From contig WPAE01000001.1 in NCBI GenBank assembly GCA_009773205.1, positions 94,775-158,774 of the forward strand: a DNA stretch of 64,000 nucleotides, written 5' to 3'. Numbering within the stretch: position 1 is the first letter of the stretch; each line of letters opens with the position of its first letter. Below are positions 6,981-24,091 of the stretch, piece by piece. The translations under genes were made by a program, and so were the position numbers. A model generated the notes under the pieces. It had not been told where the DNA came from and ran no database searches. It worked only from the letters and a program-made list of their open reading frames with translations. Origin of the DNA: Ignavibacteria bacterium. GTDB lineage: Bacteria; Bacteroidota; Ignavibacteria; Ignavibacteriales; Melioribacteraceae.

Positions 6981-7214
6981 TTATTGGATTCTCAATCCCG
7001 GGTTGTTGAAGCGGAAGCGATAGGACAAAGCTGGCTGCAGAGGAATTGGATACCCATTACGATGCTTACTTTTTTAATACTCGTTGTTTGTGATTCTTTT
7101 GATTGGCTTGCATTCCGTTTAAGTAATGAGGCATGGACGTTGTTGCAGATTGGATTGGGTGGATACGTTTTAGGAAGAACTGGGGAAAAAATAGTTGAAA
7201 AAATCAGAAAGTAG
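6861..7214 (+). CDS. 3TM-type phage holin-like protein
   Basis: The frame gives 117 aa from TTG at 6861, but the family-like part begins near the ATG at 6939 (residue 27). From there: a short amphipathic segment, ESKLLDSQSRVVEAEAIGQS, WLQRNWIPITMLTFLILVV (membrane helix), then SNEAWTLLQIGLGGYVLGRT and EKIVEKIRK. The WLQRNW..P and LLKIGLGGYVxGRxxEK patterns are hallmarks of the GTA/3TM holin family (phage or gene-transfer-agent lysis). The N-terminal 26 residues do not look like the family and are antisense to another open frame, so the 5' end may be chimeric. It lies in a duplicated block next to an integration border, with no other phage genes nearby, so it is probably a relic. Confidence 0.6.
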   Translation: MKNSLPIFKEILSYFIFLHWVYGIFAMLEFLGKSLEYESKLLDSQSRVVEAEAIGQSWLQRNWIPITMLTFLILVVCDSFDWLAFRLSNEAWTLLQIGLGGYVLGRTGEKIVEKIRK

Positions 7215-10341: not shown

Positions 10342-11332
10342 AGTAATGCGATTTGATCAAGATATTAAGTTTATTCTTTAATTCAATTGCTTTTTCAGAA
10401 AGATTCTCTTCAATCTCCTCAACGTAATTTTTATAAAGTGAATAGAAAGAGAAACAAAACGCTTGTTCAGTTTCCTCGCGAGTGTTACCCCATACCGTAA
10501 TATCCAAGTCATGATTTGTAATAAAATATGAATCGTCTTCGAAATTCACATCACACACTAATGCAGATTGTAATATAAAAATATGATTATCAAATCGGAT
10601 AGTATCTGGTTTGAAAGGATATGTTTCGTGGTGCAAAACTTCTATATCGTAGACTTTTTTAATTGATGATTTTTTTAATTCGATTTGAGAACCAAATGAT
10701 GACACTCTAAAATAACCTTTAATTAACTGTTCTTCCGATTTTGGTTTTTCTAATTTTACAATAGGAATAATTTGTTTCTTCCTTAATTCATCAGGCGGAA
10801 CAATGCGCTTAATTATTTTATCATTTTTGTCCAATAAATGGACATGATAAGATTTATCATCGGAAATGGTATCGATAAATGGTTTGTAGACTCTACTTCT
10901 AAATTCTTCTGGGTATTTGGAAACGATTTCATTTACTTGTTGCTGATCAAGATAGTTAATGTACACTACATCGTTTTTGAAGTTATCAAATGTAGTTTTC
11001 TTGAATTCAAGGACCTCATTTTTAAAAAATGGATCTTGTTGTTCTAATAAATTGGGGGCGAGTGCAGGTTGAAAACTACCCATCTTTGCATCAACAATAA
11101 GAAGTTGAAAATTATCTAGGAATTCTTCAAGGAACTTAGGTTTACCAACAAGGTATTCTTTGTATATAGGGTTGTTTACTAATTTGTATTCGGAAAATTG
11201 ATGAAAAGACTTTTTAATATCGCTTAGAACTTTTATTAAAGTATCAACGGTAACAACTTTTTCAATCGTTCCGATGGATTCAATCTTTAGATTTATAGAA
11301 ATATCTTTGAGAAGCAAAAGCGATTTTTTCAT
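10322..11332 (-). CDS. Hypothetical protein, possible antitoxin partner (336 aa)
   Basis: Not recognised with confidence. No membrane segment or signal peptide. The last 80 residues (HDLDITVWGNTREETEQAF and a helical tail) recall the HicB pattern, in which a partially degraded RNase H fold is followed by a helix, and the gene overlaps a HicA-like frame. The first 250 residues are of mixed alpha/beta character with FLxNFQLLIVDAKMG. It sits directly downstream of the type III restriction gene on the same strand (62-bp gap) and may be part of that unit. Confidence 0.6.
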   Translation of the reverse strand: MKKSLLLLKDISINLKIESIGTIEKVVTVDTLIKVLSDIKKSFHQFSEYKLVNNPIYKEYLVGKPKFLEEFLDNFQLLIVDAKMGSFQPALAPNLLEQQDPFFKNEVLEFKKTTFDNFKNDVVYINYLDQQQVNEIVSKYPEEFRSRVYKPFIDTISDDKSYHVHLLDKNDKIIKRIVPPDELRKKQIIPIVKLEKPKSEEQLIKGYFRVSSFGSQIELKKSSIKKVYDIEVLHHETYPFKPDTIRFDNHIFILQSALVCDVNFEDDSYFITNHDLDITVWGNTREETEQAFCFSFYSLYKNYVEEIEENLSEKAIELKNKLNILIKSHYYEAPKN

Positions 11333-11394
11333 AAAATTAATTTAATTACTTGTGGAAAGTAAGTCAAAGCCACATTAACATAATTATTTTGATT

Positions 11395-14214
11395 TTAGAA
11401 TGTTTTTTGTAAAAAGTGAAAAAAACTCATATTCACCATAACAGAATTATGGGGAATGAGGATATACTTCCAGGGTTTGCCGGAGTTTTGCGCATTGTAT
11501 TCCGATGCGTATCTGCAATAATCTTTTGCAGCTGTTGCTTTGTATTGTACTTCCAAATCATCAATATCACTTTCTCTTTTTATTTCTATCATAAAAACTG
11601 TTTCGTTGGTCTCTGCAATAAAATCTGGTATGTATTTATTTGACTTCTGCCTATCCCAATAAATCCAAAATTGATTAACAGTTGGACGTAACCACTTCTT
11701 TACTTCGGAATCTTGCTCGAGTATTATCGAGAAATCTTTCTCCGCTTTGGAATCAAATTTATAGAGTGTGTGACATGCTTTCTTGAATCCGGTGAATACT
11801 TTTGTTGGAATTGCAGATGTTGGAACTATTGTTTCTTTGTAATCACGAATTGAATCTTGTGTAAACTTGGTATAGTTATGCTCTTCAATCCTTGTGAATG
11901 CTTTTACATCAATAATTGGTTTTTCAAATTCAGGAGTTTCATAATAGAAATGTTCCATCAATTGTTTGAAGATGAAATTTCCGATTTCCCGTTTGTTGTA
12001 TTGGACTACATTTCTCAAACCGTCTTCATCAAGATATGTTTTGAATTTTTCTACAGCTTGTGCTGCTAATTTGAATAAGATTTCGGATTGTGAATCATAA
12101 TCAATTTCAGTATAATTAATCAATTCATTTACTAATAGGTTTTCCGGAGTATCCAAAATTATTTTACCGCCACCTCTAACAATATCCGTATCGTTTTCTT
12201 GTTCACGTAATTTCTTGATGAGAATTTCTTCCGATACCGGCTGATAGTTCAACGCAATTGTATCAAGATCGAATTCTCTAAATCCAGTTTTAATTTCAGT
12301 GCTTGGCTGAATTGTGATGCGCGGGATCTCAATTATATTTTCAGTAAACTCTTGAACAACTGCTTCATATCTTTGTTCAGCTTCTTTGATAAGATCGGTT
12401 GCAAACATATTCTGCTGAGGATCGGAATAGATTTTTTCTTTTACCATTTCCAAAGCAATCTTTTGAATGTCTTCTCTTTTAAGATCACTAACATTCTTTA
12501 CATCTTTTTCCTTATTGAGTTCAGGAAGAACTTCATTGATTATTCGAGTAACCTCCAGCGTAATAGTCGCTTTATGTTTCTGTTCCGGTTCTATGATTGT
12601 TTCAATCTGCTTTTTCTGTTCTTCATATTTCTGCTGACTTGTTGAAATAGAAACAACAACTTCTTTGGATTGATTTAGCTCTTGTTCATCAATTACAATT
12701 ATGTTCTGCTGTTTGATAATTGAATCCGGTTTGTTGGCTTCATCAATTATTTCTTGGAATTTATCGTGTGCAACAATTGTGAGTTTATCAACTTTATCAA
12801 CGCCGGTTCTGTGGCCATAAGGCAATCTTAAACCTCTTCCAATTGTTTGTTCCCGGAGAGTTGTGGAAGCTGCTGTTCTTAAAGGAATAATTGTATAAAG
12901 ATTTGTTACGTCCCAACCTTCTTTAAGCATGTTAACATGAATTACAATTTCGATTTTGTTATCGAAGCTTTCGAGCGAAAGAAGTTTTGCAACATTCTCG
13001 TCTTTTTCTTCTCCGGATTGGTTGGAATGAATCTCCATCACTTTATCAGCATAGTATCCATTGAAGAATGATTGAGAGATTATTAAATCTTTCAGCCGAC
13101 CGGCGTGATCGGTATCTTTTGAGACTACGAGCACGAAAGGTTTTACAAGACGAACTTTAGCATCTAAAGAATATTTATACATTTCTACTTTTGTTGCTTC
13201 GTGAATTCGAATGCCGTCTTCCAATTTAATACGGTCCAATTCTTCCAAAGAATATTGCGAAGGATCGAAATCTCGTCTTGTTGCTACTGCTGGTTCTTTT
13301 ACAAATCCGTCTTGAATTGCTTTTGCAAGCGAGTATTCAAAAACAACATTCTTGAATTTGGTAGTTCTTCCCCCTTTTTCGACTTGCGGTGTTGCGGTTA
13401 CTTCAAGTCCAAGAATAGGATTGAGTTCGTTAAGAACTTCCATACCGCGATCTGCACGGTAATGATGAGATTCGTCCATCAGGAGAACCAGATCATCGAG
13501 ATTGGATAAGTAATTGAAATATGACTCGCCAAGGTATTCCGATAATCTTTTTATTTTAGGAATATTTCCGCCGCGGGTCTCTGCATTGATCTTTGAGATG
13601 TTGAAAACATTTATATGAACTTCCGATTCGAACAGTTTTGTTTGAGACATTTGTTCGTAAGTATCACCGGTGATGATACGCGGCTGGTTTGTTACAAACT
13701 CTCCAATTCCTTGAAATACATATTTAGGATTATCTATTCGGCTATCTTGAAAATCGGAAATTAGTTTATTGTAAACAGTAAGGTTTGGAGCCAACACGAA
13801 AAAGTTTTTGATTCCTTTTTCCAGATATAAGTATGCAATGAACGCACCCATTAAGCGTGTTTTACCAACACCGGTTGCAAGTGAAAAACAAACCGATGGA
13901 AATGTTCTTTCAAAGTCTGTGCAGGTTGGGTAAGTGGATTTTACTTTTTCTAGTTCTGAGTTTAGGAATTGTTGGCGTAGAGATTCTTCATCCACTACTT
14001 CGACTCCGCTCAGTATGACGGGTTCAGAATGACCAGGCTCCGTATAATTTGTTTGAGATTCTTCATCCGCCGTAGGCGGATTCAGAATGACACGTTCGGG
14101 ATTGAATTTCTTCAATGTCAATTTATCTGCGAGATTAGCGAGAATGGTTAAGCTGTCTTCTTGTGGAGGACGAAGACTTAATCTATTACGGATGAGATTT
14201 ACATTGCGGTTCAT
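11395..14214 (-). CDS. Type III restriction enzyme, Res subunit (DEAD-like helicase/nuclease)
   Basis: 939 aa. Helicase domain with Walker A ATGVGKTRLMGAF, DESHHYRADRG (DExH) and the TATP motif III (VTATPQVE), followed by motifs V/VI (MLKEGWDVTNLYTIIPLR, EQTIGRGLRLPYG). The C-terminal PD-(D/E)xK endonuclease is visible as YIPDFIAET...FMIEIKRE. With Mod it forms the type III complex that cleaves unmodified DNA after translocation. An ~45-residue stretch (about 40-85, from RVILNPPTADEE to VVDEES) reads as the translation of two palindromic repeats and is not a Res domain. The start has GGAATAATTA upstream. The gene lies after Mod and a GIY-YIG gene on the same strand. The reading frame is intact. 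Confidence 0.93.
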   Translation of the reverse strand: MNRNVNLIRNRLSLRPPQEDSLTILANLADKLTLKKFNPERVILNPPTADEESQTNYTEPGHSEPVILSGVEVVDEESLRQQFLNSELEKVKSTYPTCTDFERTFPSVCFSLATGVGKTRLMGAFIAYLYLEKGIKNFFVLAPNLTVYNKLISDFQDSRIDNPKYVFQGIGEFVTNQPRIITGDTYEQMSQTKLFESEVHINVFNISKINAETRGGNIPKIKRLSEYLGESYFNYLSNLDDLVLLMDESHHYRADRGMEVLNELNPILGLEVTATPQVEKGGRTTKFKNVVFEYSLAKAIQDGFVKEPAVATRRDFDPSQYSLEELDRIKLEDGIRIHEATKVEMYKYSLDAKVRLVKPFVLVVSKDTDHAGRLKDLIISQSFFNGYYADKVMEIHSNQSGEEKDENVAKLLSLESFDNKIEIVIHVNMLKEGWDVTNLYTIIPLRTAASTTLREQTIGRGLRLPYGHRTGVDKVDKLTIVAHDKFQEIIDEANKPDSIIKQQNIIVIDEQELNQSKEVVVSISTSQQKYEEQKKQIETIIEPEQKHKATITLEVTRIINEVLPELNKEKDVKNVSDLKREDIQKIALEMVKEKIYSDPQQNMFATDLIKEAEQRYEAVVQEFTENIIEIPRITIQPSTEIKTGFREFDLDTIALNYQPVSEEILIKKLREQENDTDIVRGGGKIILDTPENLLVNELINYTEIDYDSQSEILFKLAAQAVEKFKTYLDEDGLRNVVQYNKREIGNFIFKQLMEHFYYETPEFEKPIIDVKAFTRIEEHNYTKFTQDSIRDYKETIVPTSAIPTKVFTGFKKACHTLYKFDSKAEKDFSIILEQDSEVKKWLRPTVNQFWIYWDRQKSNKYIPDFIAETNETVFMIEIKRESDIDDLEVQYKATAAKDYCRYASEYNAQNSGKPWKYILIPHNSVMVNMSFFHFLQKTF
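13980..14037. repeat. Palindromic repeat inserted in frame in res (second unit)
   Basis: Same family as the array at 14257-14893: GATTCTTCATC ... GTATGAC..TTCAGAATGACC. On the minus strand it encodes GHSEPVILSGVEVVDEES. Confidence 0.8.
14055..14093. repeat. Palindromic repeat inserted in frame in res (first unit)
   Basis: GAGATTCTTCATCCGCC..GGCGGATTCAGAATGACAC, one base different from the first unit of the intergenic copies at 14261 and 14705. It encodes RVILNPPTADEES in the Res frame. Confidence 0.85.
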
Positions 14215-14256
14215 TAATTATTCCTTTTTATCAGTAACACTATATCACAAATTTTA

Positions 14257-14353
14257 TTTTGAGATTCTTCATCTGCCGTAGGCGGATTCAGAATGACACG
14301 CGGCTGTTTCTTTTGTTTTAGATTCTTCAGTAGCTTCGCTCCTTCAGAATGAC
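14257..14353. repeat. 97-bp direct repeat left of the GIY-YIG gene
   Basis: Contains two palindromic units (GATTCTTCATCTGCCGTAGG.. and GATTCTTCAGTAGCTTCGC..) separated by a short spacer. It is identical to 14701-14797 except for one base (CCTTCAGAATGAC against CCTTTAGAATGAC). Confidence 0.92.
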
Positions 14354-14368
14354 GGTGATATTTTTTTG

Positions 14369-14689
14369 TCATTCTGAGACCCGAAGGGGCGAAGAATCTT
14401 TTTCCCATTCTTCGCTAAGATCATTCCATACGGGATTTGCAATTTCAATTAATTGTATTTTTTTGATTCGGAGCCAGCCCTGAATTTGTTTTTCTCTTGC
14501 AATGGCAGAATTAATGTCATTTGACGTTTCATAAAAAACTAATTTGTTGATATTATATTTTTTTGTGAATCCATCTATCAGTTTGCTTTTATGTTCATAT
14601 AATCTTCTTTCAAGATTATTTGTTACGCCAGTATAAAGCACAGTATTATTTTTATTTGTCATTATATAAACATAGTATTGATTACTCAT
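14369..14689 (-). CDS. GIY-YIG nuclease domain protein (UPF0213/YhbQ-like), flanked by direct repeats
   Basis: About 106 aa from the ATG at 14689 (MSNQYYVYIM). A longer start at 14716 would be translated from repeat DNA and is less likely. The GIY-YIG core is clear: YVYIMTNKNNTVLYTGVT (Y-V-Y and Y-T-G), NLERRLYEHK with the catalytic Arg, then FYETSNDINSAIAREKQIQGW. Such single-domain proteins cleave branched or damaged DNA or act in mobile introns; this one's role is unknown. Its last residues (DSSPLRVSE) are translated from a palindromic repeat that has fused to the gene's 3' end. It lies between Mod and Res on the same strand. Confidence 0.88.
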   Translation of the reverse strand: MSNQYYVYIMTNKNNTVLYTGVTNNLERRLYEHKSKLIDGFTKKYNINKLVFYETSNDINSAIAREKQIQGWLRIKKIQLIEIANPVWNDLSEEWEKDSSPLRVSE

Positions 14690-14700
14690 CGTCTTCGCTC

Positions 14701-14797
14701 TTTTGAGATTCTTCATCTGCCGTAGGCGGATTCAGAATGACACGCGGCTGTTTCTTTTGTTTTAGATTCTTCAGTAGCTTCGCTCCTTTAGAATGAC
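14701..14797. repeat. 97-bp direct repeat right of the GIY-YIG gene
   Basis: Second copy of 14257-14353, with one base difference. Confidence 0.92.
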
Positions 14798-14808
14798 ATT
14801 CACAGTTT

Positions 14809-14893
14809 GTCATTCTGAGTGAAACGAAGAATCTGCTTTTGGGATGCTTCACTTCGTTCAGCATGACAAGATGCGATGCTCCTTCAGAATGAC
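14809..14893. repeat. Further palindromic repeat units (array)
   Basis: Three more units in a row: GTCATTCTGAGTGAAACGAAG.. (14809-14833), GATGCTTCACTTCGTTCAGCATGAC-type (14843-14867) and GATGCGATGCTCC.. (14870-14893). The last ends four bases before the Mod stop. A related unit sits at 14368-14398. Confidence 0.85.
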
Positions 14894-14897
14894 ATCG

Positions 14898-16676
14898 TTA
14901 CTTTGAAAAAAGTGTAGGTGAATCATTCTCTTTCTTCTTTTTTATTTTATCCTTTTTATCATTAAATCCTTTAGGAATAAATTCTGGCGCATTTGGATTA
15001 ACGGGCATGTTGATAATATTTAACGAATAATCATCTTTACCAAACTCACATCTACCAAGTAGCATTTTAGGAATTTTCTTTATCGTAATGTTTGAGAAGC
15101 GATCTTCACAAGCTTTGGAAAATGATTTGCAGCAGATGAGTAAGCTTTCTCCGCTCTGCATTTCTTCGTGAATTCTATCGAGTGTTTCTACTGTAATAAA
15201 TTGTGTTGTCGTATAAATAAAATCTTTTTCTGTGGATTGACCTTGTTTCCAATAAATTTGTTCATCGGGCTGGTAACGGAAGCCTTCATGTTTAGCCATT
15301 GCAGAGGCAAGCATGTTTCCATTGTATTCCGGATTGATTACCCAGTTGTTGTATTTATCTTGCTTTAATAAACTTGGAGCGAGATAATAATATTTGAAGC
15401 CGCCGCCGCCTTTCCATTGCACCATCTTACTGATTCCCGTTTTGTCAGTTCCATTTACGACTGATATAAGACGTGGTTGAGCTAGTGTATGACAGTGTTC
15501 ACCTTTTTCAACAAGTATCCACTTGCGGTTCATCTTGTGTGAAACTGCACCAGTAGTTCCGGATCCAGCGAAAGAATCTAAAATCCAATCTCCATTTTTA
15601 GTAGTCATTTCAATTATTCGATGAAGCAATCGTTCTGGTTTTTTATTTTTGGGGAAATCTACACCACCTTCTTTAGCAATTCCTTGCCAAGCAAGATCAT
15701 CCCAAAAATTAGTTAGTGGTTCGATAAGAACTACACCGTCTGAATTATAAGCAGTGCCATCAGCAACTTTATCTTTTAAGAATAAGATTCGATCACCGGA
15801 AAGAAAATACATATCACTATGTTCTTCTCTCTCGAGTCGGAATATTTTAGTAGGTTCATTAACAGACAAATCGATAAGCTCTCTTGCTGCTTTGCTAACG
15901 CCAGAATAATTGGGCTGAGCAAAACGTATTATTTCCTCAGGGTGAGACATTGCATAATCTACATATTCAACGTCAAATTTTCTTTTACCAATTGCTTTTT
16001 TGCATTCTCGCATTGAATTATATCCAAGCGTCTTTGCAATATGATCACTTAATGACTCGAATTTCCAATTTGAATAATTATCCTTAGGATTAATCAATCT
16101 TGTAGAGTAAGCCCAATCATAATCTTTGCGAGCTACATAAATTGGATTGTATTTCCAGGCCGACTTATTTTTCGAATATATGTGGAGAAAATCAACAACA
16201 TTTACTGGACCAGGATTTATTGCTTTATGACCAGTGGCGGCACTCCTTCTAATGGATACTGTCCCAATCCGATTTCTTCTTCCAAATATTTCATCAAGTA
16301 TTATTTGAAGATAACTTCCTTCAGTGTCATCTATCTCTGCAAAAAACACTCCATCAGCCGAAAGTAAATTGTGCAAATACTTTACTCGGCGATACATTAA
16401 ATCCAACCATAAACTATGTTCCATACTATCATCATATTCAGGAAATGCTTGATCTGAATTGAAAGGCGGGTCGATGTAAATACATTTTATTTTTCCGGCA
16501 AAATCTTGTTCAAGAGCTTTAAGAGCAAGAAGGTTATCACCGTAAATAAGCATGTTCTCGGTGTTCTTATTGCCGTAGGATTTCTCCGGGTCTTCAATTA
16601 AAATGCGCGGTTCAAGTTTTGGCTGGTCATTTTTCCCTATCCACGTCAATTCTAATTTTTGTTTTCCATTATTCAT
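14898..16676 (-). CDS. Type III DNA methyltransferase (Mod), adenine-N6
   Basis: 592 aa, beta-class arrangement: motif IV IYIDPPFNSDQAF near residue 87-99 comes before motif I in the middle (DSFAGSGTTGAVSHKMNR). Short motifs such as ENMLIYGDNLLALKAL and FFAEIDDTE are as in Mod proteins. The variable region around residues 150-340 is the target-recognition domain, so the sequence recognised cannot be read. It modifies DNA alone and cuts with Res. The start is at an ATG after AAGGAA. Upstream (about 16,735) a short copy of the KPKLELTW coding stretch precedes the true start, a small local duplication split by a GC-rich palindrome. Confidence 0.93.
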   Translation of the reverse strand: MNNGKQKLELTWIGKNDQPKLEPRILIEDPEKSYGNKNTENMLIYGDNLLALKALEQDFAGKIKCIYIDPPFNSDQAFPEYDDSMEHSLWLDLMYRRVKYLHNLLSADGVFFAEIDDTEGSYLQIILDEIFGRRNRIGTVSIRRSAATGHKAINPGPVNVVDFLHIYSKNKSAWKYNPIYVARKDYDWAYSTRLINPKDNYSNWKFESLSDHIAKTLGYNSMRECKKAIGKRKFDVEYVDYAMSHPEEIIRFAQPNYSGVSKAARELIDLSVNEPTKIFRLEREEHSDMYFLSGDRILFLKDKVADGTAYNSDGVVLIEPLTNFWDDLAWQGIAKEGGVDFPKNKKPERLLHRIIEMTTKNGDWILDSFAGSGTTGAVSHKMNRKWILVEKGEHCHTLAQPRLISVVNGTDKTGISKMVQWKGGGGFKYYYLAPSLLKQDKYNNWVINPEYNGNMLASAMAKHEGFRYQPDEQIYWKQGQSTEKDFIYTTTQFITVETLDRIHEEMQSGESLLICCKSFSKACEDRFSNITIKKIPKMLLGRCEFGKDDYSLNIINMPVNPNAPEFIPKGFNDKKDKIKKKKENDSPTLFSK

Positions 16677-16791
16677 GCATGCAATTCCTTAATATTTTTG
16701 CCAACTTGCCTGCCAAAGCAAAGCGGCGGCGGGTCCAGGTTAATTCTAATTTTGGTTTGTGGTTCAAAAATTTCTCCAATACATAATCTTA

Positions 16792-18390
16792 TTAATTATT
16801 TAATGTATATGCGTTTACCCAACACTTATTTAATGCTTCAAAAATAACTGACATTTCTTCTTCAAATTGCTGCTGAGTTAGATTTTCACTCATCCATTTA
16901 GCTTTTAAAACCTTTTTAGATAATGTGCATTTAGATGTCGACGCTTTCGGATAATATTCCTCTAAAGTATTGAATGGTAATTGAAAAACTTGACCATTTT
17001 CATTGAGGAATTTATTGAGTTTAATAAATTCATTATAGCGAGGTAACTTTGTATTATCTGGTTTGTCTAATAACAAAATCAATTTAGATTTATAGATTGG
17101 TGTATTTTTTAATGGATCAAATACTTTGTTAATAGCTTCCATCGACTGTCTTTGAGCTTCATCATCACCATGGGCTGCCACTATATGTATAGTTGGTTTA
17201 TTAGGATAAAATTTCTTTACAATGTTGTTAATGAATATTTCTTCACTTCTGCCTTCAACAATCAAAAAATTAGAAGGGAATAACAAATCAGCCGGGCTAC
17301 CTCCAAGCAAATCATAAACTATCGACTGGCGATCAGTTCTACTAACGCAAGTAATTTCAGTTTTCCTATTATCTTTATCTACTTTATATATATTTTGGTG
17401 AGTGTGATCATCGGCTATAAAAACGGAGGAATGAGTTGTGATAAATACTTGGTCAACAGAATTTGTTAACTCAATAAGAGAATTCTTTAGCTGTCTTTGA
17501 CCAGTAGGATGTAAATGTAATTCTGCTTCATCAATAAAAAAAACAAAGGCTCTGCCTAATGCTTCATTTCTTCTAAAATCTGCGTGTGTCTTAATGATGG
17601 CAAGCATTAATGCTCTTTGCATACCATCACCTTTCTCCTCAGCTGTAGTTTTTACACCATCGTCAAGATTTGTTTTATAATTTTTTAGAAATTCATCTAT
17701 TTCAGGCTGCCTCACATCAAATTCTACTTTTGTGCAATCGGAGAATTGCTGTTGTAAATAGACTGCTACTTTTGCGCTTAGATCATCAAGCGTCTTCTTA
17801 ACTTTTGAATTTTCTGATTGGAATAATATTTCGAACTGATCTTTAAATTTTCTATAGTCTTCATCTTTTTCTAAGACGTTAGCAATAACACTACTCAACA
17901 TCTGACCTATTGGTGTTGTATTTTTATACGATGTTACTTCTTTGAGACTTTTTGTAGCCTCTATAAACTCAAATCGCGGAATACAATTATTAAAGGCACT
18001 ATCGGCACCAGTAGGCTGTTTTTGATATTCTTTTTCAATAGGGTTATAAATAAATCTTTGATTTGGTTTATCAGAAGATCTTTTTATTTGCATAGAATCT
18101 GAATCAGCAAGAATATTTTTTAACTTAACTTGATTATCCTCATTAGAGATGTATTGAAGATTTTGTTGAACATCGCTAAAAGTTATTATTACTTCAATAT
18201 CTTCACCGTTAGCATCACAATGTCGGATTAAATCAATATCACCTTTCCCATTATAAAACCATTCGATTGCATTAAAGAAATTTGTCTTACCATGATTATT
18301 CTGACCAATCAATACGTTAAAACTATTTGGATTTATTCTGGTCTCTTTAATGGATCTAAAATTTTTAATAAATATTTCACTTATCCTCAT
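16792..18390 (-). CDS. OLD-family-like ATPase with TOPRIM domain
   Basis: 532 aa. SMC/ABC-type ATPase N-terminus: MRISEIFIKNFRSIKETRIN, Walker A IGQNNHGKTNF, ABC signature region GDGMQRALMLAIIKTH, Walker B FVFFIDEAELHLHP with the conserved THSSVFI switch. A C-terminal TOPRIM-like part begins FLIVEGRSEEIFINNIVKKF and continues with VAAHGDDEAQRQSMEAINKV and LLLDKPDN. OLD proteins (P2 Old, and Gabija GajA) are nucleases that act in phage defence. No UvrD-like GajB partner lies next to it, so it looks like a stand-alone OLD or an accessory of the type III system. It has an 11-bp gap from RhuM upstream. Confidence 0.88.
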   Translation of the reverse strand: MRISEIFIKNFRSIKETRINPNSFNVLIGQNNHGKTNFFNAIEWFYNGKGDIDLIRHCDANGEDIEVIITFSDVQQNLQYISNEDNQVKLKNILADSDSMQIKRSSDKPNQRFIYNPIEKEYQKQPTGADSAFNNCIPRFEFIEATKSLKEVTSYKNTTPIGQMLSSVIANVLEKDEDYRKFKDQFEILFQSENSKVKKTLDDLSAKVAVYLQQQFSDCTKVEFDVRQPEIDEFLKNYKTNLDDGVKTTAEEKGDGMQRALMLAIIKTHADFRRNEALGRAFVFFIDEAELHLHPTGQRQLKNSLIELTNSVDQVFITTHSSVFIADDHTHQNIYKVDKDNRKTEITCVSRTDRQSIVYDLLGGSPADLLFPSNFLIVEGRSEEIFINNIVKKFYPNKPTIHIVAAHGDDEAQRQSMEAINKVFDPLKNTPIYKSKLILLLDKPDNTKLPRYNEFIKLNKFLNENGQVFQLPFNTLEEYYPKASTSKCTLSKKVLKAKWMSENLTQQQFEEEMSVIFEALNKCWVNAYTLNN

Positions 18391-21190: not shown

Positions 21191-24091
21191 TTAAACCGGT
21201 GATGAAATCAATGTCCATCTAATTGTAAATAGTTCTTTAGTTTCTATTTTCTGCTGTAATCTTGCTTCGATATCTTCAATTATTTTTTCTTTTCGTTTAT
21301 CAACTTCGTCTTGAGCTAAAAAGAGATTCCGGCGAAGCTCACTTCTCTTTTTTTCCATATCCTTGATTTCTCTTTGTGCAGAAACTTTTTCTTCAAGGTT
21401 AAGAATCTTTCTCGCTTCGGATTTCTTAACACCAATTTCACGATCTAAATCTTTAAGTTCAAGTTCCAAACTACCTTTAAGATCATCAGCCCAACATTCG
21501 AGCTTGGTAATTTCTTCATCAAAGTATTTGGAGTTTCTTTCTTTATTGTGATCGAGAATGATTTCTTTTTCTTTTTTCAAATTATCTTGAAGAATGGTTA
21601 TAGTTTGTAGTGGAATGTTTGGAGATGCTTCATCCCGACTTTGTCGAGATTCAGCATGACCGGAGGTCATTTCACCATCGAGCAAAAATAATTTACTGCA
21701 TTGTTCAAGATCCAAAACAATTCCATCATCAGTGAGAGCGGAAAGAATCACATAGTCTTCTTGTTCGAATGATGAGATTGAATAGTATTGAGCAATTAGC
21801 CACCCGGATTTATTTATGAATTGTTCAATGATAGAAATTATTTTGTCTCTATAGGTAAAGATTACATCGTGGTTGCCCATAGTGCATGATTTACATTCTT
21901 CAATGATTCTCTGCGCTAAAGGATGACCAATTCTATAAATATTTGCATCATCTCCACTCTTAGTAATTTTATAAGGACCATGATGAATAAATTCTTGCGG
22001 GAAAGGATTTGTATGAAGGTAGAAAGAATGTTCTAATGAATCGAAAGTAGCATAATCAGTTAAAAAGTGTTTCGTTAGATTCCAGAGCCATTCTTCATAA
22101 CGATTTAAGTAATCTTTGCTTTGTTCGAAGTTGATTCTCAATTTATCTATTACATCTTGATCAAAGTTTTCGAGAAGTTTTTGCCTGGTGACATTAATTG
22201 TTTCATCAATCTGAGGTTCGAATGATTTTTGTAATTCATCGAAAGCAAGATTTATCTCTTCGGATGTTCTGCACTTCTGATAAATTTCTACAATTCTTTT
22301 CTCAAAATCTATTCCGGATTCTATGGTTCCAAGGACTTCATCGCTTGCACCAAAAACACCGCTGAACAATTGGAATTTTTCATCCAACAATTGATAAACT
22401 CTTTGATCTGCGGCGTTCTTTTTATTTAGGAAATTCACAACTACAACATCGAAAGCTTGACCATAACGATGGCACCTACCAATTCGCTGTTCAATCCTTT
22501 GGGGATTCCATGGGAGATCGTAATTAACAACCAATGAACAAAATTGAAGGTTAACACCCTCAGCAGCAGCTTCCGTTGCAATCATTATTTCCGCTTCATC
22601 TTTGAAATATTCTATGATTGCAGCTCGTTTATCAGCAGTCTTGGAACCGGAAACTTTATCAGTCCCTTGATGTTTCTTTAACCACTTCTGATAAATTTCG
22701 TTGGACAGATGATCGTTATTAGAACCGTTGAATAAAACTATTTTATTTTGAAACGCAGTTCTGTCCAATAAGTCGGAAAGATATTGTTGTGTTCGTGTTG
22801 ATTCAGTAAAAATGATTGCTTTTCGATTTGCACCAAGTCGTTCAATTTCTGTGATTCCTCTATGGAGTGCTAAAAGCAAAACCTCACCTTTGGAATTAAT
22901 TTGAATAGCCCGTGCGAGTTCAAAAAACTCTTTCAGTTTTTGCGATTCTTTCTTTATTTCTTCGATCTGCTCTTTGGAATATGTATCGGATTCATCGTTT
23001 CCATCATCTTCCCATTCGTCTTTAATTTCTTCGTATTCCTCATAATTAGTTTGCAGCTCGTTTTCGAGCGGAGCTTCTTGAACTTGATTTGACTCAATAA
23101 TTACATCAAGCTTTTGAGAAAGTGCTTGGAGAGTTCCGGATATTGCATAAGTTGATGAAGCTAGAAGTTTTCTTAGAACAAGAGTCATCAACTGTCTTTG
23201 ACTTGGAGGAAGTGCAAATAATTTTTCAGATTGTAAATAGTCTGAAACCAAATCATAGAGTTGCTGTTCTTCATCAGTCGGGAAGAATTCTTGTGTGATA
23301 GGAATTCTTTTTGTGTAACGAATGTATTCAAGAACTTGTCTTCTGAGAGTTCGAATACAGAGCGGTGCAAGCCGCGCTTTTAATTCATTAAAAATATTCT
23401 CATCAGCCAGCCGTGAATATTGAATGCGAAAACTCTTCAAGTCTCCGAAAGCATATTCATCAACAAAACTCACAAGACCAAAAAGTTCTAATAAAGAATT
23501 CTGTAATGGTGTTGCAGTAAGTAAAATTTTGGGTGCATTAGCAATAGAATTTTTAATAGAGTTTGCTATTTTATTGTTTGGTTTATAAACGTTACGCAAA
23601 CGGTGAGCTTCATCAATTACAACCAAATCCCAATTTATGAGACGAATATATTGTTCTTGTTTACGTGCAAACTGATATGAACAAATAATAATTTCTTTTT
23701 GATCGAAAGGATTTAGAATACCTTTTTTTATTTCATCATTGAAAGATTTCGTTTCAAGAAGGATAGAGTTTAGAAAAAACTTATCGAGTAATTCTTGATT
23801 CCACTGCTTGCGTAGATTAGAGGGAACGATTATTAAAATCTTTCTTTTCCTTTCAGCCCACTTTTGAGAAACGATTAATCCGGCTTCTATTGTTTTGCCT
23901 AGACCGACTTCATCAGCGAGTATTGCTCCGGTAGATAAAGGAGAGCGAAAGGCAAAAAGTGCAGCTTCAACTTGATGCGGGTTAAGATCAACTTGAGCAT
24001 CCATCAAAGAGGTAACTAGTTTTTGAATACTGTCTGAAGGACTATTTTTGGTTAATTCGTAAGCATAATATTTCGCATGAAAAGGAGTCAA
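21191..24091 (-). CDS. Large SNF2/DEAD-type helicase, restriction/defence-associated
   Basis: 966 aa, starting at TTG (TPFHAKYYAYELTKNSPSDS matches the start of relatives). The SNF2 motor has motif I LADEVGLGKTIEAGLIVS, DEAHRLRN, LTATPLQNSL, and motifs V/VI EAAAEGVNLQFCSLVVNYD and PQRIEQRIGRCHRYGQ. The C-terminal third has long charged coiled-coil helices (about 830-945). The family is often found beside type III restriction genes and recalls the DISARM DrmD helicase, but no drmA, drmB or drmC is present. Residues 810-828 (MTSGHAESRQSRDEAS..) are translated from a palindromic repeat and interrupt the usual sequence. The gene heads the minus-strand defence cluster. Confidence 0.88.
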   Translation of the reverse strand: MTPFHAKYYAYELTKNSPSDSIQKLVTSLMDAQVDLNPHQVEAALFAFRSPLSTGAILADEVGLGKTIEAGLIVSQKWAERKRKILIIVPSNLRKQWNQELLDKFFLNSILLETKSFNDEIKKGILNPFDQKEIIICSYQFARKQEQYIRLINWDLVVIDEAHRLRNVYKPNNKIANSIKNSIANAPKILLTATPLQNSLLELFGLVSFVDEYAFGDLKSFRIQYSRLADENIFNELKARLAPLCIRTLRRQVLEYIRYTKRIPITQEFFPTDEEQQLYDLVSDYLQSEKLFALPPSQRQLMTLVLRKLLASSTYAISGTLQALSQKLDVIIESNQVQEAPLENELQTNYEEYEEIKDEWEDDGNDESDTYSKEQIEEIKKESQKLKEFFELARAIQINSKGEVLLLALHRGITEIERLGANRKAIIFTESTRTQQYLSDLLDRTAFQNKIVLFNGSNNDHLSNEIYQKWLKKHQGTDKVSGSKTADKRAAIIEYFKDEAEIMIATEAAAEGVNLQFCSLVVNYDLPWNPQRIEQRIGRCHRYGQAFDVVVVNFLNKKNAADQRVYQLLDEKFQLFSGVFGASDEVLGTIESGIDFEKRIVEIYQKCRTSEEINLAFDELQKSFEPQIDETINVTRQKLLENFDQDVIDKLRINFEQSKDYLNRYEEWLWNLTKHFLTDYATFDSLEHSFYLHTNPFPQEFIHHGPYKITKSGDDANIYRIGHPLAQRIIEECKSCTMGNHDVIFTYRDKIISIIEQFINKSGWLIAQYYSISSFEQEDYVILSALTDDGIVLDLEQCSKLFLLDGEMTSGHAESRQSRDEASPNIPLQTITILQDNLKKEKEIILDHNKERNSKYFDEEITKLECWADDLKGSLELELKDLDREIGVKKSEARKILNLEEKVSAQREIKDMEKKRSELRRNLFLAQDEVDKRKEKIIEDIEARLQQKIETKELFTIRWTLISSPV
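21622..21662. repeat. Palindromic repeat inserted in frame in the SNF2 helicase
   Basis: GAGATGCTTCATCCCGAC..GTCGAGATTCAGCATGACCGG is the same family as the array at 14.2-14.9 kb (GATGCTTC..TTCAGCATGAC). It encodes SGHAESRQSRDEAS with no stop. Confidence 0.85.

Follow-up and report, generated by a model that had tools for sequence, protein, structure and literature searches.

The window analysed here is a stretch of 64,000 nucleotides from an Ignavibacteria bacterium (contig WPAE01000001.1, positions 94,775 to 158,774), and all window coordinates below count from its first letter. It carries a gene for a single-domain GIY-YIG nuclease set among short palindromic units, and the relationship between the gene and these units is the subject of this work. 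The gene lies on the minus strand at 14369-14689 (PF01541, 62.8 bits) and encodes 106 amino acids counted from the ATG at 14687-14689, which is outside the repeat DNA. A longer version of the open reading frame (ORF), 14369-14716, begins at an upstream ATG (14714-14716) inside repeat DNA. Two copies of a 97-bp direct repeat enclose the gene, at 14257-14353 and 14701-14797. Each contains two units, all on the minus strand: 14262-14297 and 14320-14353 in the first copy, 14706-14741 and 14764-14797 in the second. The sole mismatch between the copies is at 14345 (C/T), and the identity is 94% when they are extended to 108 bp. The unit at 14706-14741 stands immediately upstream of the gene and is co-directional with it. 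A plus-strand unit at 14368-14399, opposite in direction to the gene, overlaps its 3' end and supplies the last residues of the protein. Together these two units form what is also the commonest layout elsewhere, namely unit, gene and inverted unit with the GTCAT ends outward. Beyond the second 97-bp copy lie two more units, at 14809-14834 (plus strand) and at 14842-14867 (minus strand, variant GTCATGCT...AGCATCC). All of these units were found with the generic unit search.

The nuclease gene separates two minus-strand ORFs, a DNA methylase (Mod-like, PF01555) at 14898-16676 and a type III Res-like helicase (PF04851/PF00271) at 11395-14214, and the 683-bp gap between them holds the gene and seven units. 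Two further minus-strand units, located by the generic search and by alignment, lie in frame within the Res ORF at 14056-14091 and, in imperfect form, at 13981-14033. An earlier reading made from the letters alone (the sequence-only reading) had described the two 97-bp copies around the gene with one mismatch and two units each, the origin of the gene end in another unit, the upstream start codon in repeat DNA and the location inside a restriction operon. These descriptions held on re-analysis, as seen from the recomputed alignment, the unit at 14368-14399, the ATG at 14714-14716 and the Pfam assignments of the ORFs on either side.

In one direction the unit was defined as GTCAT-xyz...z'y'x'-ATC[TC], with loops of up to 60. 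The generic pattern matched 11 times in the window and 0 times in the reversed control, and a strict pattern occurred 38 times in the 4.14-Mb host genome, again with 0 in the reversed control; the units are therefore not chance matches. Nine of the window units lie between 13981 and 14867 and a tenth at 21623-21660, while the eleventh generic match (15604-15660) is probably a chance one. The tenth unit is in frame within an SNF2-family helicase ORF (21191-24091, minus strand), where it encodes the peptide GHAESRQSRDEAS. Among 296 gene-flanking units, the base preceding GTC was T in 252 and C in 32, and the tails began with CT in 255 and were CCA in 20. At the 320 outer ends of 160 convergent unit pairs that hold no gene, T preceded GTC at a frequency of 0.89 and no base farther out rose above 0.40. 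One such gene-less pair, from genome G136, folds into a single long hairpin (z -7.4).

Coupling of the nuclease gene and the units

Contigs were scanned with the window protein, and the best 80 of 175 relatives were used; 76 of the 80 could be assigned to one of 17 phylum names. Only at its very end does the scan query contain residues encoded by repeat sequence, and the six peptide patterns of the scan come from elsewhere in the protein. As controls, 541 ORFs of at least 100 codons, lying more than 1.5 kb from the gene, were taken from the same loci. A unit was present within 300 bp of 79 of the 80 relatives compared with 79 of the 541 control ORFs, and units stood on both sides of 70 of the 80 relatives compared with 4 of the 541. 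Unit density was 5.8 per kb inside 300 bp of the gene and 0.17 per kb past 1 kb, and the units in the 80 loci numbered 484, compared with 10 for the reversed pattern. These counts were made with the definition above, in which loops of up to 40 already gave 78 of 80 and loops of up to 60 gave 79. A narrower first definition had given a unit within 300 bp in 66 of the 80 loci and units on both sides in 53; it was widened because the 14 failing loci turned out to carry this palindrome with a different spelling of the stem. The single miss under the widened definition is a locus (L102) where the sequence breaks off 103 bp upstream of the gene match; only degenerate units could be seen there by eye. 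The co-occurrence of GIY-YIG genes and units that had been proposed for checking was thus found to be beyond chance, and the coupling between this nuclease subfamily and the units is established computationally as strong, specific and cross-phylum.

With the definition fixed, the best 30 loci of the host's class, the window locus included, were examined in the same way; 29 had a unit within 300 bp and 25 had units on both sides. In a plasmid collection, 34 records held a relative and ten of them were examined. A strict unit lay within 300 bp in eight of these loci and on both sides in six; of the two misses, the locus of Rhizobium tumorigenes had no unit and that of Sphingobium had a variant, GTCAC. 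Two of the eight are from Azospirillum lipoferum, where the gene sits between sufB and sufC, and from Neisseria gonorrhoeae (L124), where 16 units of dRS3 type surround it within 6.3 kb. A phage collection of 50,697 records gave one weak match to the nuclease. The host genome has nine PF01541 matches, of which only the window gene has paired unit halves nearby and only the window gene reaches E 1e-20 with the subfamily alignment; among these nine, the host genome by itself gave no association of gene and units.

At the level of whole genomes, 197 genomes of the host's class were compared, with the gene called at E <= 1e-20 (96 with, 101 without). Units were counted by three patterns, and other unit types, GTCATTGC among them, were left out of these counts. 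At least five units were found in 76 of the 96 genomes with the gene and in 25 of the 101 without it (odds ratio (OR) 11.6, p about 1e-14). The median number of units per genome was 20.5 with the gene and 0 without, and the Spearman correlation over the 197 genomes was 0.59. An earlier class test with two unit patterns had given an OR of 4.4 at the threshold of at least five units; the third pattern was added because gene-bearing genomes without counted units carried GTCATTCCCG-type units. When the gene was permuted within taxonomic families, the mean overlap was 64.3, and the observed overlap of 76 was reached in 0 of 5000 permutations (Mantel-Haenszel OR 6.4).

The specificity of the association was then compared with that of other enzymes. 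The Pfam family Y1_Tnp of IS200-type transposases, which also covers the RAYTs, was present in 158 of the 197 genomes. Considered alone it correlated with the units (0.40), with at least five units in 91 of 158 genomes with Y1_Tnp and in 10 of 39 without (OR 3.9, p 6e-4). The partial rank correlation with the units was 0.17 for Y1_Tnp given the GIY-YIG gene and 0.50 for the GIY-YIG gene given Y1_Tnp, and among class genomes that lack the nuclease gene the presence of Y1_Tnp made no significant difference to the units (p 0.48). A RAYT as the mover of the units was rejected, since the effect of Y1_Tnp vanishes once the GIY-YIG gene is accounted for. Weaker GIY-YIG matches from 15 unit-bearing genomes were used as a second control. 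They gave 30 loci, of which 22 were unclipped, and the eight clipped loci were left out. A unit lay within 300 bp in 3 of the 22 and units on both sides in none; two of the three loci with a nearby unit are halves of one split gene. Separately, the weaker matches include five in tandem at G165:C1:120132-122174, with 450-bp spacing and with an internal stop in three, which are an array of another GIY-YIG subfamily.

The type of unit also follows the gene. A quick gene tree was built from 91 proteins, 88 of which were labelled by unit type, and unit type changed 27 times on this tree compared with 46.8 times in within-phylum shuffles (0 of 1000). After removal of ten near-duplicates (78 rows) there were still 27 changes, compared with 42.4 in the shuffles (0 of 2000). 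In one clade of the tree the GTCATTGC type occurred in all nine rows, which come from five named phyla.

Layout, insertion sites and the protein

The nearest units at the 70 loci with units on both sides were arranged as plus-gene-minus, with the GTCAT ends outward, in 40 cases, and as plus-plus, minus-minus and minus-plus in 12, 11 and 7 cases, respectively. With 60 bp of flank to spare, the gene was bracketed by a plus and a minus unit in 63 of 90 loci, which delimits elements of 343-682 bp. The convergent layout is also present as gene-less pairs; in a biased set of loci, neighbouring units were convergent in 160 cases after deduplication, divergent in 105 and in the same direction in 100, the latter two counts not being deduplicated. 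One deltaproteobacterial genome contains three copies of a unit-gene-unit element, about 89% identical over about 590-630 bp. It also has a short piece without the gene, both sides of which are similar to the element ends (73-83% over 46-88 bp, with shorter stretches up to 92%). Of 28 dispersed units read in G136, ten are spelled alike, more than for any other spelling, and the unit at one side of the gene has exactly this spelling. At two cyanobacterial loci (L108 and L119), blocks of unit plus spacer were seen to have grown in tandem, differently in two Okeania genomes.

The gene occurs at unrelated sites: within the Mod/Res operon in the window, between sufB and sufC, and between GH43 and GH127 genes. 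A homologous operon without the insertion was found in G169, a genome of another family in the same order. Its Res is 94% identical to that of the window, its Mod and Res ORFs overlap by 4 bp, compared with the 683-bp gap in the window, and no unit was found in 16 kb around the operon. A role of the nuclease in restriction-modification was rejected, as no evidence for it was found and the operon in G169 has no such gene. The N-terminal linker of the window Res carries about 44 extra residues, mostly unit-encoded, which are absent from the homologues in G124, G119 and G029. In G169 (L261, contig C26, near 7086-7163) the Res linker has an insert that differs from the window units, and for this reason the linker seems to be a repeated landing site.

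In A. lipoferum the sufB-sufC spacer, with the gene and its units, is 617 bp long, compared with 91, 87 and 129 bp in three relatives, and the flanks are 95-96% identical across A. lipoferum and the three relatives; no exact insertion ends could be read in this comparison, because the spacer has diverged, nor in those of the Mod/Res operon and the Res linker. In Shinella relatives without the gene, the spacer was too different for an empty-site comparison. A pair of units in G180 lies in what looks like the same sufB-sufC spacer that has the gene in A. lipoferum (L195 and L126). Other units of G180 fall in variable loops of a kinase-like ORF, where exact ends could not be set.

Inverted repeats outside the units exceeded the 99% level of shuffled sequences in 10 of 63 gene elements, 7 of 86 pairs in gene loci, 3 of 7 pairs of the host genome, all 5 pairs of G049, 1 of 12 other class pairs and none of 15 pairs of G136. 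A subset of pairs in G136 has weak flanks in common, and the three deltaproteobacterial copies have common outer arms. In the host genome (L010-L039), several dispersed units and unit pairs were observed inside an element resembling a miniature inverted-repeat transposable element (MITE), with ends near GGGCATCTCTAAWAAC. A search of Rfam, introns included, gave no match at window positions 11000-17000 or in eight other gene loci.

The nuclease is under purifying selection, as dN/dS was 0.04-0.53 in those pairs, 14 of the 17 compared, in which dS was unsaturated. An alignment of 46 sequences has 17 invariant columns, among them Tyr8, Tyr19, Arg29, His33, Glu66 and Asn85, which are of the kind that is catalytic in GIY-YIG enzymes. 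The subfamily has a conserved C-terminal NPxWxDL stretch, which contains the invariant Asn85. A Pfam scan of the window protein found the GIY-YIG domain alone and no DNA-binding extension. A profile search of the PDB (hmmsearch, E <= 0.01) returned only 1zg2 and 1ywl, both UPF0213. The AlphaFold2 model of the window protein had a mean pLDDT of 89.1, and its best Foldseek match was again 1zg2 (E 1.9e-4), followed by Slx1-Slx4 chains (E 0.008-0.1). By sequence and by Foldseek, the subfamily thus resembles Slx1 and UPF0213 in domain, size and fold.

In a superfamily survey, the UPF0213 structures 1zg2 and 1ywl are grouped with Slx1, and the Slx1 group is described as being without the C-terminal Asn (PMC1564403). 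The invariant Asn85 sets the window subfamily apart from that description, though it may not be the equivalent residue; it did not align to any Asn in 1zg2. The subfamily also differs from Slx1/UPF0213 in its repeats, since the weaker GIY-YIG matches mostly lack them. Slx1-Slx4 is known for structure-selective processing of branched DNA, and hairpins or cruciforms would therefore be plausible substrates of the window nuclease.

A candidate mobilising enzyme for YGTC-tagged repeats

Repetitive extragenic palindromes (REPs) have been sorted into GTAG-tagged and CGTC-tagged super-families, the latter of which 'apparently lack a dedicated transposase' (Di Nocera, De Gregorio and Rocco, 2013, PMC3733652). 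As characterized in that survey, CGTC-tagged REPs have an unpaired tag, which is TGTC in many repeats, and a stem that starts with AT pairs; dimers are common, mainly of the HH kind, and copies also occur inside genes. The survey distinguishes four families, from 5 phyla, in which the stems measure 8-9 bp, the loops mostly 4-5 bp and the tails are mostly CCA. It counts dRS3 of Neisseria and RPE-4 and RPE-6 of Rickettsia conorii among the CGTC-tagged repeats, and it places families in many Alphaproteobacteria and such REPs in A. lipoferum (PMC3733652). The sequence-only reading had made no connection between the units and this super-family. The units described here have the CGTC/TGTC tag and the intragenic copies in common with it, and apparently the frequent inverted dimers, and A. 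lipoferum and Neisseria, both named for CGTC REPs, carry the GIY-YIG gene among such units. The AT pairs at the start of the stem were preset in our units by the search pattern GTCAT...ATC, and the Sphingobium locus has GTCAC. The window units and many others depart from the stem and loop consensus, having mismatched stems and variable, longer loops, although GTCATTCCCGCGAAAGCGGGAATCC-type units of other genomes look close to it; the tails are mostly CT rather than CCA. Because the tag and the common examples fit while the consensus of stem, loop and tail does not, we named them YGTC-tagged REP-like units; they are linked to the CGTC super-family by the tag and the common examples and are not placed in its four families. 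Where the survey gives 5 phyla and no associated enzyme (PMC3733652), the present units extend over 17 phylum names with a nuclease gene alongside.

The closest parallel is the RAYT/REPIN system, in which a small enzyme gene is likewise flanked by palindromic repeats of its own type, gene-less inverted doublets are likewise dispersed, and the repeat type tracks the enzyme (PMC3116915). The tags differ, GTAG there and YGTC here, and so do the enzymes, a Y1 HUH transposase there and a protein with only PF01541 here. Since the enzymes are unrelated, the GIY-YIG module is not a member of the RAYT/REPIN system. For RAYT systems there are reports of cleavage and of excision (PMC3116915); for the GIY-YIG system both are predictions. 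Classical insertion sequences and MITEs have terminal inverted repeats and target-site duplications; here no duplication above background was found in 160 pairs, and outer repeats were found in 10 of 63 gene elements. Among the listed titles and abstract openings of open-licence literature, which was the scope of our search to the exclusion of subscription journals and preprints, no link between GIY-YIG nucleases and REPs was found, and no paper there combined the two terms. The terms 'giy' and 'nuclease' are absent from a 2025 REP survey (PMC12306157), and a gene table of a Moraxella pangenome has entries for a GIY-YIG endonuclease and for RayT, which the passages concerned do not connect (PMC9465073).

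We propose, with a probability of roughly 0.6, that the nuclease is the dedicated mobilising enzyme of the YGTC-tagged repeats, as RAYTs are for GTAG REPs. The window copy would then be a very small selfish module, consisting of a one-domain GIY-YIG gene and CGTC/TGTC-tagged palindromic units. The nuclease would recognise either the unit itself or a structure formed by two convergent units, a long hairpin or a cruciform, and would cut at or next to the tagged end. Such cutting could lead to unit pairs and the unit-gene-unit element, of 343 bp or more, being excised or copied to new sites. Convergent pairs without the gene would be its non-autonomous counterpart, in the way that REPINs are the counterpart of RAYTs. 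The sequence-only reading had already suggested that the nuclease mobilises or spreads the units. The co-occurrence at the level of gene, genome and unit type stands in its favour, and the mobilisation itself is what we infer from it.

Several observations weigh against this proposal. The first unit definition was GTCATT..AATC, and its widening was post hoc, made after 14 of the 80 loci had failed. When three window units were folded singly as DNA (z -1.55, -0.95 and 0.37), two folded modestly better than shuffles and the third no better. The layout is mixed, with 30 of the 70 both-sided loci in arrangements other than plus-gene-minus, and the resolution of the gene tree is poor, since 52 of its 88 inner branches are open. 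No target-site duplication above background was found in the 160 convergent pairs, and five syntenic pairs yielded no clean empty site, only expansions and unrelated differences. Fifteen gene-bearing genomes of the class show fewer than three units by the patterns used, and 20 genomes without the strict gene have at least ten. When 15 of these 20 were searched again at E <= 1e-3, 11 gave weaker matches or fragments and 4 gave none, so that units can exist without the gene; G096, with 129 units, has no nuclease match at this threshold. One of the clipped weak-match loci (L208) has units on both sides. It consists of a GIY-YIG fragment with a stop and unit pairs on either side (G120:C442, 973-1515), in a genome with 30 counted units where no intact strict gene was found, and it may be a decayed member of the nuclease subfamily. 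Finally, copies with outer inverted repeats may have travelled as cargo inside MITEs.

Homing is the established role of other GIY-YIG enzymes, of the I-TevI type, and a homing-like passenger is the first alternative to be weighed. The nuclease would cut existing REP pairs, repair of the break would copy the gene in, and the REPs would spread by other means. The position of the gene between units that also pair without it and the persistence of units without the gene, as in G096, fit this explanation, and the co-occurrence and the covariation of unit type with the gene would fit target specificity equally well. Homing endonucleases belong to the same catalytic superfamily, and they too are selfish nuclease genes beside a presumed target. 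They sit in an intron, an intein or a fixed allelic site, whereas the window subfamily occupies unrelated sites with no Rfam intron match, and they have an extra DNA-binding domain, whereas Pfam finds the GIY-YIG domain only in the window protein. Moreover, most unit-rich genomes of the class have the gene (67 of the 87 with at least ten counted units), and the 2013 survey found no other enzyme for CGTC REPs (PMC3733652). We regard homing as unlikely, at somewhat under one chance in five. Transport of units and gene inside MITEs or insertion sequences, moved by ordinary transposases via outer inverted repeats, is possible for some copies because such repeats flank them: all five G049 pairs, 3 of 7 host-genome pairs and 10 of 63 gene elements, beside the common outer arms of the three deltaproteobacterial copies and the common weak flanks of the G136 subset. 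As a general explanation it is improbable, since outer repeats above the level are absent from 53 of 63 gene elements, from all 15 G136 pairs and from 11 of the 12 other pairs of the class, the 320 pair ends mostly agree in the T before GTC and in no base beyond it, and the pairing of the subfamily with units in 79 of 80 loci and 17 named phyla would be left unexplained.

A host function is less probable still. In that case a structure-selective repair nuclease would trim REP cruciforms and be kept near REPs by regulation or selection, and the Slx1-like fold and the purifying selection are what one would expect of such an enzyme. A mobile element is the better fit for a gene that is scattered over the class (96 of 197 genomes), can reach 7 copies in one genome, is present in unrelated operons and has the unit-gene-unit layout. 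That units and a dispensable gene passively gather in the same tolerant intergenic DNA is very improbable. Units do cluster in repeat-rich spots such as window positions 13981-14867, but units on both sides were seen for only 4 of the 541 control ORFs, most of the weaker GIY-YIG matches have no unit nearby, and unit type covaries with the gene. The reading in which the nuclease mobilises the units is the one that we prefer.

Taken to its full extent, this preferred reading would mean that the enzyme missing so far for the CGTC/TGTC REPs is a stand-alone GIY-YIG nuclease some 95 residues long. Its gene and two units would make up a self-mobile element that, at 343 bp or more, is among the smallest. 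Such elements would work by structure-selective cleavage and not by DDE, HUH, serine or tyrosine recombinase chemistry; they would occur in at least 17 named phyla and would be the source of dRS3 and of some Rickettsia palindromic elements. We consider the balance of evidence for this wider claim to be even. CGTC-tagged REPs are widespread, and the question of their missing transposase now has a candidate enzyme that is cheap to test with a protein of about 95 residues and a synthetic hairpin. If the proposal is true, DNA would have a means of movement that has no relation to the transposase folds known so far, and repeats that now go by several names could be traced to a single enzyme. Short unit-encoded peptide inserts in bacterial proteins would be explained as well, and the small genes annotated merely as 'GIY-YIG nuclease family protein' would gain a role.

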